Virus record (IMG/VR): IMGVR_UViG_3300003873_000054
Location: 1-40,747 of that record
Source: a virus
DNA length: 40,747 bases
Direction: 5' to 3' (one strand)
The position numbers and the translations under genes were made by a program. Each line of letters opens with the position of its first letter. Position 1 is the stretch's first letter. A model generated the notes under the pieces. That model did not search any database and had not been told where the DNA came from. It worked only from the letters and a program-made list of their open reading frames with translations. This document shows positions 14,501-33,230 of the stretch, piece by piece.

Positions 14501-14646
14501 TCTGCATATATGACTGCCGCGCCTAAACTAGCTACTACTCGTGGTACATTTGATAAGTTAGATAAGAAAGACGGTTGGGCTAGTAAACTATCTACCTCAG
14601 CTATGTTAGCGCCTTTTGGCACGATGGATGATTCAAAACGGTTAAT
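11576..14646 (+). CDS. Virion-type RNA polymerase beta subunit, exon 1 (N-terminal about 1023 residues)
   Basis: Beta-like subunit of a phage multisubunit RNA polymerase, most like the polymerase injected with phiKZ-type virions (gp178), because it is one long beta chain and lies beside the prohead protease and structural genes. Beta-type features: the lobe/protrusion region, the block VHEDNTIRMSGNNYVMRAQR near residue 525, and the end LAPFGTMDDSKRL, which aligns with bacterial RpoB PFxxxDDxxR. Residues of about 320-385 form a very acidic linker. An AGGAGG site precedes the ATG. Read straight through, the frame stops at 14648-14650, inside a group I intron; joined to exon 2 (15002-16100) the protein is about 1389 residues. 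Confidence 0.88.
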
Positions 14647-15001
14647 TTAGCCTGCTATAACAGTAATGTTATAGTTTAACGCATTGAATTGCTGGAAACT
14701 CGTAAAGCTATGTATGCTACAACGTAAGGATGAAATAAACCTAAGCGTGAATGCCTTAAAAATACATAGATAATAATTGACAACCAGCAGCGAAGCCCTT
14801 AATAGGGGAACGTTCAACGACTATTCCGGAAGGAAGTAGGGCTCGAGTGAGTGGGTATAGAATCCCTTAAATCGAAGCGGTGCGGCTCCTAATGTGTTAG
14901 GAGTATGATATAGTCTATCCTATAGGGAAATCCTATAGTTAGTTATTTAAACGAACATACATAATAACTACTGATGGATTAACGACCCATCAGCAATTTT
15001 G
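14647..15001 (+). ncRNA. Group I intron in the RNA polymerase beta gene
   Basis: A self-splicing intron of about 355 bases without its own endonuclease. The core is recognisable: GTTCAACGACTA (14812-14823) and GATATAGTC (14908-14915 region) form P7 and flanking joints; TGCTGG (14690-14695) pairs with CCAGCA further on; CTATAGG/CCTATAG with a GAAAT loop and CTGATGG/CCATCAG near the end form P9 helices. P1 is supported by exon GTTAA pairing with intron TTAAC (14675-14680). Ends were chosen so the exon ends in T, the intron ends in G, the frame is kept, and ATAA of exon 2 can pair with TTAT of the guide (P10). The exact 5' end could be off by a few bases. Confidence 0.85.
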
Positions 15002-25772: not shown

Positions 25773-25808
25773 TTAATAACCCATCTCCGAGAATAACAAA
25801 GAGTTCTT
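25773..25808 (-). pseudogene. Orphan duplicate of the polB 3' end
   Basis: The minus strand reads K-N-S-L-L-F-S-E-M-G-Y-stop directly after the endonuclease gene. The intact polB gene ends K-G-T-L-L-F-S-E-M-G-Y-stop on the other side of it. Nine of eleven residues are identical, while only 26 of 36 bases match, so most codons differ synonymously. It has no start and is not in frame with the endonuclease. I read it as the gene end that was displaced when the endonuclease cassette, with its own recoded copy of the end, inserted. Confidence 0.85.
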
Positions 25809-27211
25809 TAAGTGTGCATTAGATACTTTTTAACGTCATTAAGTGTGGTTTCTGGTGGTAGATCTTTACTATGGCATATGTCTCGGAAATCTTTATAATA
25901 CTTATCACCATCTCTATATTTATATATTTTGGATAATTTAAATAATAAATAATCCTCTATATTTTTGTATTCCATATATGGTATTCGTATAAGTGGTATA
26001 TTATGCCTAGCGGCTAGCTCATTCTTAGCTTTATCTCTTTTTTGTGTCGATAGTAGGGCTTTTTCACCACCAAAGAACCCTATCGCTCGATAGTGTTGTA
26101 CACCATCGTATTCTATAAGTACATTGAGATTAGTTAGATAGAAATCATACCTATATAGGTTACTATCGCCTATTATATATTCTTTCTTGTATTTTATATT
26201 ATTCTCGATCAGGAACCCGGCTACTCTTATTTCACCCTTACTAGAGTTACATATAGGACACCCAGTTCCTGCTATATGACTGGCCGGCGTTTGTTTAAAT
26301 TCACCATGTTTTTTACATACTATTATCACATGGCTTTTCGCGTTAGCATATATAACTTTATCATAATTATATAGACCTTTATGAACTACCAAGGACTTCT
26401 CTTTAAACTCTTCTAATGTATCTCGTCTCGCATCTACACTACACTCGAAACAACCTGCGCCATTAAGGTGTAATTTAGGTGTTTGTTCGAACTCGCCGTG
26501 GGTATTGCATACTATGGTTACATTAGTTATGTTATTGACATACTTAACTTTACTGTAGTCGTATGTATTGCCGTGTATCTCTCTAGCGAGCTCGATGAAC
26601 TCGGCCGTATCCCTACTAAGTAATTCCTTACTAGCATCAGACATACAACGTTTACATCCGCCATTACCCTTTATATGGTCGGCAGGCAAGACTTTGAACT
26701 CGCCATGTTTTCTACATATTATCGATAGCTTCTGAGTAGATAATATATACTCTGTTTTAGAATAATCAAACTTATCCCCATGAATAGCCATAGCTCTTTT
26801 CAGGTATTCGATATTTTCCAAACGAGCAGGCTTAGTCCTACATTTGAAACAGCCATGACCATTCATATGATTAAAAGGGGACGTTTCGAAATCGCCATGT
26901 ATAGGGCATGTGACGATTATTTTATTACCTGCGGTATATATAGATTTATCATAGCTAAATTTATCACCATGTTTAGCTTTGGATCTCTTGATGAATTCTT
27001 CGGTAGTTAGTGTGTTCCTAGCTATGTAACATTGTTTGCAGCCGTTACCGGCTAGATGGTTACCTGGTAATATATCAAAATCACCATGTTCTGGGCATAC
27101 CACAATGATTTTAGTTAGATAATTATTGTATTTAACTTTACTATAATCGTATGCATACCCATGAACATCTTCAGCTCTAGTTATATATTGTTCAGTAGTT
27201 AATTTTATCAT
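25808..27211 (-). CDS. EDxHD (Vsr-like) homing endonuclease with five zinc-ribbon-like repeats, 467 aa
   Basis: Probably a free-standing homing endonuclease that spreads its own gene by cutting relatives that lack it. Five tandem repeats of about 55-60 residues (roughly 4-61, 67-124, 131-189, 201-257, 264-322) share the pattern F...A...HGxxYxYSKxxY, then C..HGxF...P..HLxGxGCxxC, and probably bind DNA using zinc. The nuclease domain (about 325-425) has GEIRV (E327), YRYDFYL (D356), LIEYDGVQHY (H373) and KRDKAKNELA (D393), the EDxHD pattern of I-Bth0305I-type enzymes, related to Vsr and PD-(D/E)XK nucleases. CCGGAG precedes the ATG, 13 bases after the polB stop. The duplicated polB end behind it marks its insertion. 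Confidence 0.88.
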   Translation of the reverse strand: MIKLTTEQYITRAEDVHGYAYDYSKVKYNNYLTKIIVVCPEHGDFDILPGNHLAGNGCKQCYIARNTLTTEEFIKRSKAKHGDKFSYDKSIYTAGNKIIVTCPIHGDFETSPFNHMNGHGCFKCRTKPARLENIEYLKRAMAIHGDKFDYSKTEYILSTQKLSIICRKHGEFKVLPADHIKGNGGCKRCMSDASKELLSRDTAEFIELAREIHGNTYDYSKVKYVNNITNVTIVCNTHGEFEQTPKLHLNGAGCFECSVDARRDTLEEFKEKSLVVHKGLYNYDKVIYANAKSHVIIVCKKHGEFKQTPASHIAGTGCPICNSSKGEIRVAGFLIENNIKYKKEYIIGDSNLYRYDFYLTNLNVLIEYDGVQHYRAIGFFGGEKALLSTQKRDKAKNELAARHNIPLIRIPYMEYKNIEDYLLFKLSKIYKYRDGDKYYKDFRDICHSKDLPPETTLNDVKKYLMHT

Positions 27212-30324: not shown

Positions 30325-30828
30325 TCAAGCTTTTGTTATATGTACCATAATCTGATTATTAGAATACACCCATCTTACAGGTATGTATATATCCATATAA
30401 TCTGCTATATCCATACCAGTAACAGATATATTATATTCTGGAATTATTGAATATAAAAGCTCTATAATCTTAGTACTATTGGGTATCTCAGATATAACAC
30501 TATTTAACTCACAAGCTTCCAGTTCTTCGCATATGGCGTCCATATACATATTTCCATACCCAACCTTAGTATCGTCTATATTTAACGCGCCTATATTTAT
30601 TATAGATATCTCACTAAGGATAATAAATAACTTTATATTAACTTCTTCTGGAAATACACATCCGTTAGAGATTAACGAGTTTTTGAACATAGCATACATA
30701 GAGGTAGCGTCTATGATAGTTATCTCGCTAGACGACTCAATAGCATCCTTACTATTTACGTATATATGTTCCATAGAAGTAATTGCTGTTATCGATACGC
30801 ATCCGGAAACTGTTACTTCCGTATTCAT
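30325..30828 (-). CDS. Small acidic protein of a duplicated family, 167 aa
   Basis: Function not recognised. It is a paralogue of the gene directly upstream (30825-31322): both have an N-terminal strand with VxVS or SVTS, a central helix with CEELE (DAICEELEACEL here), and an end with NNxxMxH (SNNQIMVHI here). The start overlaps the previous stop by four bases (ATGA) and uses AAGGA within the previous gene. The alternation of strand, helix and strand suggests a compact alpha/beta fold repeated through this cluster. Confidence 0.75.
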   Translation of the reverse strand: MNTEVTVSGCVSITAITSMEHIYVNSKDAIESSSEITIIDATSMYAMFKNSLISNGCVFPEEVNIKLFIILSEISIINIGALNIDDTKVGYGNMYMDAICEELEACELNSVISEIPNSTKIIELLYSIIPEYNISVTGMDIADYMDIYIPVRWVYSNNQIMVHITKA

Positions 30829-31322
30829 AGTCGTTCCTTATTAGTAACCACTATCATATGCAACATCAAGCTATTGTTGCAGCCATCCCATTGACCTATC
30901 ACAATAGTAGATTTGTCATGGTTGTACATATTATATAGATTATTAACAAACTGACTATCAGAAATGACTTCCATACATAATATTATCATATCTTCAGTTA
31001 CGTCGACCCCTTGTAGATATTCTTTATGAATAGTATACTCAAGTTCCTCGCACGCCTCGTCAAGAATTATCTCACTGGAATCTAACCCATTAAGATAATC
31101 AACATGCCCTGAGTTATGTTCAGCAATAATAATTTCTATAACTATCTGAAATATTCTTAACCCACCAGACATGGTTATCTCAGGATATTTATTAGATAGT
31201 GCGGATTGACATAATGCATATTCTGAATGCATATTAACAACGTGTATAAAACTCATCCTATTGGCTATCTCAACATCTGGTATGTTAGATCTAACTCTGG
31301 ATGTTACAGATATAGCTCCCAT
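30825..31322 (-). CDS. Small acidic protein of a duplicated family, 165 aa
   Basis: Function not recognised; paralogue of the next gene downstream. Shared blocks: SVTSRVRSNI at the N-terminus, DEACEELEYTI in the centre, and CNNSLMLHMIVV near the end. The start is the ATG at 31322; a GTG 21 bases upstream lies in the hairpin of the IscB element. Unusually for this cluster no ribosome binding site precedes the ATG, because the iscB element lies directly upstream and may have separated the gene from its original site. Confidence 0.72.
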   Translation of the reverse strand: MGAISVTSRVRSNIPDVEIANRMSFIHVVNMHSEYALCQSALSNKYPEITMSGGLRIFQIVIEIIIAEHNSGHVDYLNGLDSSEIILDEACEELEYTIHKEYLQGVDVTEDMIILCMEVISDSQFVNNLYNMYNHDKSTIVIGQWDGCNNSLMLHMIVVTNKERL

Positions 31323-31329
31323 TTTATAA

Positions 31330-31373
31330 CACCAAGGGAACACCCACCTCTACAGGTGGGTGTGGAATTGGTG
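31330..31373. terminator. Hairpin at the downstream end of the IscB element
   Basis: A perfect 10-bp stem ACACCCACCT/AGGTGGGTGT with a four-base loop (31340-31363) is extended by CACCAA/TTGGTG (31330-31335/31368-31373) after an internal loop. It lies 15 bases after the iscB stop codon. It may be both terminator and transposon end, since IS200/IS605-type elements have subterminal hairpins. Confidence 0.75.
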
Positions 31374-31387
31374 TAACAGTATTATTA

Positions 31388-32593
31388 TTACATTGCATGT
31401 ATTATTCCTTGGTATATAAGTGTTGTTGATCTAGCTTGTAGCCTTTTACAGTTCTTTTTAACGCTAACTTCATCTATCAACTGGCTAAATATATCTCCTA
31501 TAACGAACCATCCAGTACTACGCTTACCTTTAATGAACCCAGTGCCCTTAGGAGTCTGTATAAGATCGAACTTACGTAGTCCGAACAGTTTACCTGTAGG
31601 TATACGTATGTTACTATGCGGTCCTTTAGTCTGTCGATAGTCACCAGACGAGACATGTCTTTTAAGTAGAACATAGTCACTACTCTTAATACGGTTACTA
31701 CCGCTAGCTATAGCAACAGCATCGTTGTAGTGTGTCTTAGGTAGATGCAGTATCTGTTCTCTAACATACTTCGTTATATAACCGAAGGTCTCTTGTAGTG
31801 GCACTAGTTTCTTAAGATTGTTAGCTATGTAGTTAGTATGCATAGCATGCCTAGTTCTACTAGGAGCGCTATCTATAGTGAACATACCAGCATGTAGTGC
31901 TTTATGACATGATTCACATAGTGTAACTAGGTTAGCTGGAGCATTAGTACCACCTTGACTGCGATAACGTATGTGATGCACATGTAGCTTATCAGAGTGT
32001 TTACACTTCTGTCTAGATTTACATTTATAGTTATCACGGTCTAACACGAAAGCTTTAACATTATAATAACCTAATTGATCTCCTTTCTGGTAATTATCAA
32101 CTAGGAAATTGTTATTCGATATTCTAGCTATATCGAACTTAGTAGTTTCAACCACCCATTTAGAGATAGGTAGTATCTGTTCCATCTGACGGCGTTCGCG
32201 TAGATGTGAGTCTACTTTAGATCTTAGGCTAGGTGGTAGTCCACTACTAGTTCTGTTAAGGAACCTAGGTGCTCTATAACGTAGTCTACCACGTCTGGTT
32301 CTCCTGTACATACGTCTCTGGGTCATCTTCTTACTAACATCATTACGTATGACTGTCTCAGCTTGATAGATAACTCTTTTGCTAGCTATAGCTGCAGTGC
32401 CTATAGTTTTAGATCCTATATCCATACCTGCAGTTACTGGTTGTACGTAGTGTGATGTTGGTTGGTTAAGTTTGATAGTGAATGGTGTTCTTCTTTTAAC
32501 TTTAGCTTTACTGGCACGTAATAACCGTCTAGCTATCCGTGGTGAGCACGGCATGAGTGGTTCATTATCTATATTTATTACATATACACGCAT
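31388..32593 (-). CDS. iscB: IscB RNA-guided nuclease, 401 aa
   Basis: RNA-guided DNA endonuclease of the family ancestral to Cas9. Domains in order: PLMP domain (EPLMP, 11-15), RuvC-I GMDIGSKTIGT with D58, arginine-rich bridge helix (about 91-111), RuvC-II with E149, HNH with HVHHIRYRSQGGTN (H206/H207 region), LVTLCESCHKALH and a CxxC pair, and RuvC-III HYNDAVAIAS with H288 and D291. All expected catalytic residues are present and the length is typical for IscB, so it should be active. AAGGA lies eight bases before the ATG, overlapping the end of the omega RNA. No transposase is linked, which suggests it acts as a homing-type nuclease in phage co-infection or has been adopted by the phage. 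Confidence 0.95.
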   Translation of the reverse strand: MRVYVINIDNEPLMPCSPRIARRLLRASKAKVKRRTPFTIKLNQPTSHYVQPVTAGMDIGSKTIGTAAIASKRVIYQAETVIRNDVSKKMTQRRMYRRTRRGRLRYRAPRFLNRTSSGLPPSLRSKVDSHLRERRQMEQILPISKWVVETTKFDIARISNNNFLVDNYQKGDQLGYYNVKAFVLDRDNYKCKSRQKCKHSDKLHVHHIRYRSQGGTNAPANLVTLCESCHKALHAGMFTIDSAPSRTRHAMHTNYIANNLKKLVPLQETFGYITKYVREQILHLPKTHYNDAVAIASGSNRIKSSDYVLLKRHVSSGDYRQTKGPHSNIRIPTGKLFGLRKFDLIQTPKGTGFIKGKRSTGWFVIGDIFSQLIDEVSVKKNCKRLQARSTTLIYQGIIHAM

Positions 32594-32599
32594 GTGTAT

Positions 32600-32870
32600 A
32601 TTCCTTGTATTGATTAGGCTATTAGTAGCCTACCGCCGTTACAGCGTTATGCGTATCTCTACGACTTCCTCTCGTCCATGTTAAGCAAGCTTCAGATGTG
32701 GTTGACTGTCCGTTACCCAACAGACTGTTTACAGAGCCACGATAGAGCCTAGTACTGAGGCGGCATACTAGGGTATCTAGATCAAGCTTAACGTAGTTAT
32801 CGTAAGATAACTTAGACTGGTCAACAAGCTTTTACAAGCTTCCTCCGAGCATGGCTTGGTGGGGGGTATT
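32600..32870 (-). ncRNA. Omega RNA (HEARO RNA) of IscB
   Basis: This non-coding stretch directly upstream of iscB would act as its guide RNA; HEARO RNAs have just this position. On the minus strand several stems can be seen: AAGCTT/AAGCTT with a GTAA loop (32826-32841), AGTTATC/GATAACT (32795-32812), CCTAGTA/TACTAGG, and TAGGCTA/TAGCCTA (32615-32632) close to the iscB start, with CGGCGG before it. It is richer in G and C than its flanks. The guide is expected at the 5' end, that is, near 32860-32880, derived from flanking phage DNA. Exact ends are estimates. Confidence 0.85.
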
Positions 32871-32876
32871 GACAAA

Positions 32877-33230
32877 TTACTCCAATTTAAATATTACATT
32901 CTTATCGTCCATTTTATCATACCATGCGTTACATAATACTGATCTATGTCTGTTTATGATAGCTGTTGTTATTATTTTATGTGCTTTTAGAAAGTATGTA
33001 ACTAACGCAGGTTCGTTTGTATATGAATCTATATTAGCAAACGCCTCTACCTTATCGGTATCGGAATAGGTTATCTTATCGTAAATAGTCTTAATGGCAT
33101 CAGTAACATATGCTTTACCCTTAAGCGGGTGGGTAGTGTACGTGCGAAGAGCCACATCTGATGCTCCCGGATATGGCTCTTGTGGTAACTTGTTAATGAT
33201 TATATCCTTACTAATAGTTATGCTGAGCAT
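32877..33230 (-). CDS. Unknown small protein upstream of the IscB element, 117 aa
   Basis: Function not recognised. It has an N-terminal strand (LSITISKDIII), a helical middle and a final strand (NVIFKLE). Although shorter than its neighbours, both ends look natural, so I do not think the IscB insertion truncated it. GGAGG lies six bases before the ATG, inside the end of the preceding gene, which it overlaps by 20 bases. Its last codons and stop, TTGGAGTAA, may once have been the ribosome binding site of the gene now on the far side of the insertion. Confidence 0.72.
   Translation of the reverse strand: MLSITISKDIIINKLPQEPYPGASDVALRTYTTHPLKGKAYVTDAIKTIYDKITYSDTDKVEAFANIDSYTNEPALVTYFLKAHKIITTAIINRHRSVLCNAWYDKMDDKNVIFKLE

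Follow-up and report, generated by a model that had tools for sequence, protein, structure and literature searches.

RNA-guided nucleases of the IscB/OMEGA type (OgeuIscB, TbaIscB, HfmIscB) unite a PLMP motif, a split RuvC nuclease, a bridge helix, and an HNH nuclease, and are accompanied by an omega RNA (HEARO, RF02033) that lies directly upstream, takes its guide from the 5′ flank of the element, and finds its target-adjacent motif (TAM) in the 3′ flank. Proteins of the IscB/HEARO type are already known in phages (PHROG 119 and others), and a comparable principle has been described for the related nuclease TnpB, which has been shown to spread insertion sequence (IS) elements in plasmid populations through cleavage of IS-minus copies (PMC11870625). 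Among the openly accessible papers searched, none described an IscB from a jumbo phage or one serving phages as a homing element. Here, we analyzed the IMG/VR virus record IMGVR_UViG_3300003873_000054, a fragment of 40,747 nucleotides taken in full (40.7 kb; hereafter the window), which carries an IscB gene and an omega RNA sharing all of the above features without an accompanying transposase. Overall, our observations suggest that this unit is probably an RNA-guided homing or retention element that would cleave element-free alleles of its own insertion site. Positions below are those of the window, and the records and loci compared with it are designated by an L followed by a number.

An IscB gene and its omega RNA

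The identity of the open reading frame (ORF) as IscB is confirmed by several comparisons: it scores 302.8 bits against the family model NF040563.1 (NCBIfam guided_IscB), for which the cut-off is 175, its Pfam matches are RRXRR (181.9 bits) and HNH, phmmer pairs it with solved IscBs, and a Foldseek search with its predicted structure (a five-model prediction of moderate confidence, with a predicted local distance difference test score of 73) returned the solved IscB 8csz as top match (E 8e-24). Residues D58 of RuvC-I, E149 of RuvC-II, H206/H207 and H230 of HNH, and H288/D291 of RuvC-III are kept among its relatives, as is the PLMP motif at 12-15, and the full set of IscB domains and catalytic residues that the initial annotation had read from the letters is thus borne out by family model, conserved positions, and structure. 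Since the protein harbors an HNH domain, unlike IsrB, double-strand cleavage would be expected. Its sequence is 53-61% identical to those of close relatives and about 40% identical to those of two distant ones, and in the tree it forms a separate long branch near the base of the close relatives.

The omega RNA lies 67 nt upstream of the IscB ORF. It had initially been proposed from the fold of the upstream 270 bases; the HEARO model indeed matched at full length (table 1), with a scaffold of 213 nt rather than 270. In an alignment of 17 sequences, compensatory changes were found in 32 of the 39 predicted pairs.

Insertion site and predicted guide and TAM

By analogy with relatives, the element is placed at 31323-32873 (1551 nt), near the limits of 31330-32876 given at first. 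Copies with different flanks start exactly at GTCAA/GTAAC and end in an imperfect hairpin followed by a short tail, an equivalent right-end hairpin being found in almost all viral and cellular relatives whose right end is resolved.

Table 1. Positions of the element, its parts, and the adjoining genes in the window.
Feature	Position	Strand	Basis
iscB, 401 aa	31388..32593	-	PLMP, RuvC-I, bridge helix, RuvC-II, HNH, RuvC-III, C-terminal TAM-interacting region
Omega RNA scaffold (HEARO, RF02033)	32661..32873	-	Full-length Rfam match, 113.3 bits vs 83, E 8.5e-23
Left joint of element	32873..32874		Element starts at G of GTCAAT; same boundary in multicopy relatives with differing flanks
Right-end imperfect hairpin, 46 nt, ACACCAATTCC...TTCCCTTGGTGT	31329..31374	-	Equivalent hairpin in relatives
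Right-end tail TATAAA, final six element bases	31323..31328	-	Boundary by analogy with empty alleles of relatives
Predicted guide TAAATTGGAGTAATTT, 16 nt of 5′ flank	32874..32889	-	Flank directly 5′ of omega RNA
Shine-Dalgarno GGAG within guide	32880..32883	-	Belongs to downstream gene in empty allele
Predicted TAM ATGG, start codon of downstream gene plus one base	31319..31322	-	Insertion sites of relatives; IsrB TAMs
Downstream gene, parted from its Shine-Dalgarno by the element	30825..31322	-	Probable homologue L006 6551-7090
Upstream gene	32877..33230	-	Homologue L006 6202-6564, 38% identity

Within its operon, the element separates the downstream gene's start codon from its Shine-Dalgarno sequence, a placement not noted in the initial annotation: the 5′ flank ends with ...TTAAATTGGAGTAATTT, the 3′ flank begins with ATGGGAGCT, and the rejoined flanks give the Shine-Dalgarno GGAG, six bases, and the start codon, which is the same kind of start as that of other genes of the operon. 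When a guide length of 16 nt is borrowed from known IscBs, the occupied locus reads as a guide match followed by GTCA, and the geometry is such that a guide match followed by ATGG arises solely on rejoining the flanks. Across 18 elements, the opening tetranucleotide is GTCA, GTAA, or ATCA and in no case NTGR, and a scan of the window for guide-like sites beside NTGR returned none with fewer than five mismatches elsewhere. Because the occupied site is devoid of the TAM, it should not be cut, and because the window holds no other near-match, the element-free allele would be the sole expected target. As the element sits just before the start codon of a gene, its guide would spell the unoccupied version of that spot in other phage genomes. 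On geometric grounds, the predicted recognition site is thus restricted to the element-free allele, as a homing element requires. With regard to the left end (32870-32873 in the window), the three tetranucleotides correspond to the NTGR TAM with just the G replaced, a difference that could spare the occupied site with minimal change or simply be required by the RNA fold.

Related elements were found on some 20 viral contigs and at 40 loci in cellular genomes, with many copies per genome in some cases (Methanosarcina STD2_179; archaeon BM5_bin.6). We compared 17 viral elements lying in different contexts (the window and 16 viral relatives) with 4124 ATG[AG] control sites. The duplex formed by the 5′ flank with the anti-Shine-Dalgarno sequence has a mean of -5.8 kcal/mol in the viral elements against -1.5 in the controls (Mann-Whitney p 9e-8), and the right end abuts an ATG[AG] that opens an ORF of at least 60 aa in 13/17 of them against 21% of the controls. 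As the Shine-Dalgarno score uses the left flank alone, it is independent of the start codon chosen on the right. The TAMs comprise 14 ATGA and 3 ATGG, the latter including that of the window; HEARO elements were reportedly described in 2009 as lying before ATGA/GTGA. Since some elements of cellular genomes precede an NTGA that is no gene start, the preference for start codons probably reflects the TAM together with phage gene density, not a separate recognition of translation starts. In one viral contig, more than 20 tRNA genes occupy about 4 kb (L029 171-4309) directly upstream of the IscB/HEARO element.

The mode of insertion could be read from cellular relatives, by using their rejoined flanks as queries against other genomes of the genus concerned. 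This recovered true element-free alleles, the best being those for L085 and L103 in Methanosarcina (about 89-96% identity) and for L098, L100, and L108 in a second archaeal group; they read as 5′ flank followed by N-TGA, with zero bases lost or duplicated (for example, GGAATCAAT joined to ATGAAAAAG). In aligned Vibrio alleles (about 66-67% identity), an element is inserted at AAGGAATATGA, between Shine-Dalgarno and start codon. Cellular relatives thus show insertion immediately 5′ of the TAM with the target neither shortened nor duplicated, and by analogy the same may hold for the window. The NTGA of the empty alleles agrees with the TAMs measured for IsrB, namely NTGA, NTG, and NTGG (PMC9581776). 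Two other placements were considered and dropped: an insertion inside the start codon, between N and TG, with the element supplying the A, which base counts had suggested together with seemingly in-frame joins in L090 and L100, and, considered first, an OgeuIscB-like TAM (NWRRNA) at ATAAAA; in both cases, the true empty alleles place the N in the target. L090 was also discarded as an empty-site case, its right flank lying elsewhere in relatives, and no empty allele was found for L095 in Photobacterium. In Methanosarcina sp. STD2_179, bare left- and right-end remnants adjoin full copies (upstream flanks of L093 and L092), which suggests deletion derivatives or non-autonomous copies.

Element-free relatives of the window locus itself were found at the level of gene order. 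The record L006, whose polymerase is 63% identical to that of the window, has neither IscB nor HEARO and presents the same succession of genes: phuZ, 33694, the counterpart of the upstream gene (38%), a probable counterpart of the downstream gene (a single comparison gave E 7e-5), 29874, 29488, and the polymerase; L174, also without HEARO, retains phuZ, 33694, 29488, and the polymerase. The claim that the element was inserted in an operon accordingly holds, its gene order persisting in both records, and relatives with an empty site, suggested at the outset as a check, do exist as syntenic phages, albeit with a joint that cannot be read base by base. DNA searches of the phage collection with the flanks of the window and of L016/L020 returned no empty site, a protein search with the upstream gene found nothing in phages, PhuZ used as bait returned only the L006 contig again, and, within the sensitivity of tblastn, no phage record with a phiKZ-type polymerase was present among the IscB matches listed.

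Probable homing or retention and its alternatives

As a homing or retention element, the unit would function as follows. The omega RNA would be transcribed together with about 16 nt of upstream flank as guide and bound by IscB, as elsewhere in the family, and the complex would recognize a guide match directly followed by NTGR, here the ATGG of the start codon. Since the occupied allele has GTCA after the guide match, guide and NTGR would be found together in the element-free allele alone, which the HNH and RuvC domains, with their catalytic residues in place, would be expected to cut. During co-infection, repair from the element-carrying genome would then copy the element in, or the cut genome would be lost. 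The homing role envisaged in the initial annotation gains strength from the guide/TAM geometry and from the true empty alleles of related elements.

The phage bearing this element is well supported as belonging to the phiKZ-type class by the genes of the window, which include a PhuZ-like tubulin matching PHIKZ039, a divergent family B DNA polymerase (PF20286, 631 bits), a virion RNA polymerase beta gene, and a match to phiKZ gp29PR/tail sheath. From these marker genes, we infer that it may be nucleus-forming (Chimalliviridae); the nuclear-shell gene ChmA/PhuN was not recognized on the 40.7-kb fragment. Two further selfish elements, one of them probable, were observed in the window. A group I intron (14633-14938, + strand; RF00028, 78.3 bits) interrupts the gene for virion RNA polymerase beta just behind a conserved Asp-Asp, a site that it shares with an intron in Pseudomonas phage HPP-Temi (L172 3111-3396) and, going by the published description, with the gp210-carrying intron of PhiPA3; no endonuclease ORF was seen inside it. 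A probable free-standing homing endonuclease (25808-27211, - strand; phrog_559/681), with repeated treble-clef motifs and a C-terminal YDGVQHY motif, lies beside the DNA polymerase gene and was not found beside the polymerase in L174-L176. Intron, probable homing endonuclease, and IscB thus represent three kinds of selfish elements in about 18 kb.

Several points weigh against homing or retention. Homing alone cannot explain the presence of related elements at many unrelated sites, a transposase acting in trans was probably needed at times for the element to spread, IscB and the omega RNA would have to meet inside the phage nucleus, and no nucleotide-level empty allele was found for the window's own site, L006 and L174 being too diverged to align across the joint. 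As first noted for the window, there is no transposase: the Y1 transposase (PF01797) is absent from it and from 25 related viral records (0/26), when 12/14 of the cellular genomes searched contain one, so that mobility to new sites would have to be supplied from elsewhere, probably by a Y1 transposase acting in trans. Among the features of IS200/IS605-type transposons, the Y1 transposase is missing from the window and its viral relatives and the subterminal hairpin ends are present, as is the duplication-free insertion beside a fixed motif, which is seen in the empty alleles of relatives and which we infer for the window itself.

A more far-reaching and rather improbable reading is that co-infecting nucleus-forming phages use the endonuclease against one another, for homing or interference, and that its ribonucleoprotein forms in the cytoplasm before being imported into phage nuclei; its guide being a translation-start region and its TAM a start codon, such a weapon may also act on similar gene starts of more distant phages. 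The distribution of Y1 transposases, the unrelated sites, and the resemblance of the right-end hairpins to IS200/IS605 ends would also fit a passive relic, moved once by a Y1 transposase in trans (of the host or of another element) and now immobile, without homing. We consider this unlikely, because the ORF, the catalytic residues, and the omega RNA are intact and the RNA pairs preserved, unlike what decay would leave and in contrast with some cellular copies that are frameshifted or stop-bearing, and because the intact genes of some 20 viral carriers point to maintenance. Less probable still, the nuclease could mainly aid its phage by destroying element-free co-infecting relatives, not by copying itself. 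Such interference competition is a real alternative since gp210 of the nucleus-forming phage PhiPA3 works in this way (PMC11620839; PMC12908238), being imported selectively and conferring a competitive advantage over PhiKZ (PMC11620839), and the RNA polymerase gene of the window is interrupted by an intron at the matching codon; however, the syntenic relatives found have diverged target sites that would probably escape cutting. Finally, it is highly improbable that ribonucleoprotein binding to Shine-Dalgarno/start-codon DNA serves to repress phage or host genes, in the manner of nuclease-dead TnpB-derived repressors: the guide does span a Shine-Dalgarno, the TAM is a start codon, and two unrelated phage lineages (L072-L077) carry exact 19-mers of guide and ATGG at the starts of genes, but both nuclease sites are intact, unlike in dead repressors, and by our own estimate two such matches are near chance for so large a collection, given the shared motif. 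Neither of these lineages is related to the phage of the window, and near-matches may be more numerous for a translation-start guide than for a random guide.

Comparison with known systems

The working principle of such an element is already known from IscB and TnpB, and the unusual part is the host: an RNA-guided OMEGA nuclease is here placed in a class of phages believed to seal their DNA in a protein nucleus that keeps out DNA-cutting enzymes, next to a known class of competition tools, the intron endonucleases. This raises the testable question of whether an RNA-guided nuclease and its RNA can enter a phage nucleus, be it their own or that of a rival. Moreover, the insertion rule, whereby the element settles between Shine-Dalgarno and start codon with the latter as TAM, would explain how these elements lodge in gene-dense phage genomes with coding sequence left unbroken, and it yields exact target and TAM predictions for each element.

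With respect to the described IscB/OMEGA systems, the element of the window differs by its location in a phiKZ-type phage, the lack of a transposase, and a structural-alignment identity of about 15-27% to solved IscBs. The IsrB nickases (DtIsrB, BbIsrB) have TAMs (NTGA/NTG/NTGG; PMC9581776) that fit the start-codon motif of the window and are without the HNH domain present in its IscB. TnpB of IS200/IS605, as a plasmid gene drive, likewise has a guide that records the insertion site, so that element-free copies are cut (PMC11870625), as is predicted for the window; it is, however, a Cas12-type ancestor with guide and TAM at opposite ends relative to IscB, and usually comes with a transposase. 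As for the intron homing endonuclease gp210 of PhiPA3, whose role in competition has been demonstrated (PMC11620839), it shares with the window IscB an HNH endonuclease carried by a mobile element of a phiKZ-type phage and aimed, by prediction in the case of IscB, at the element-free allele; gp210 is protein-guided and intron-borne, whereas the IscB of the window is predicted to be RNA-guided and lies outside an intron.
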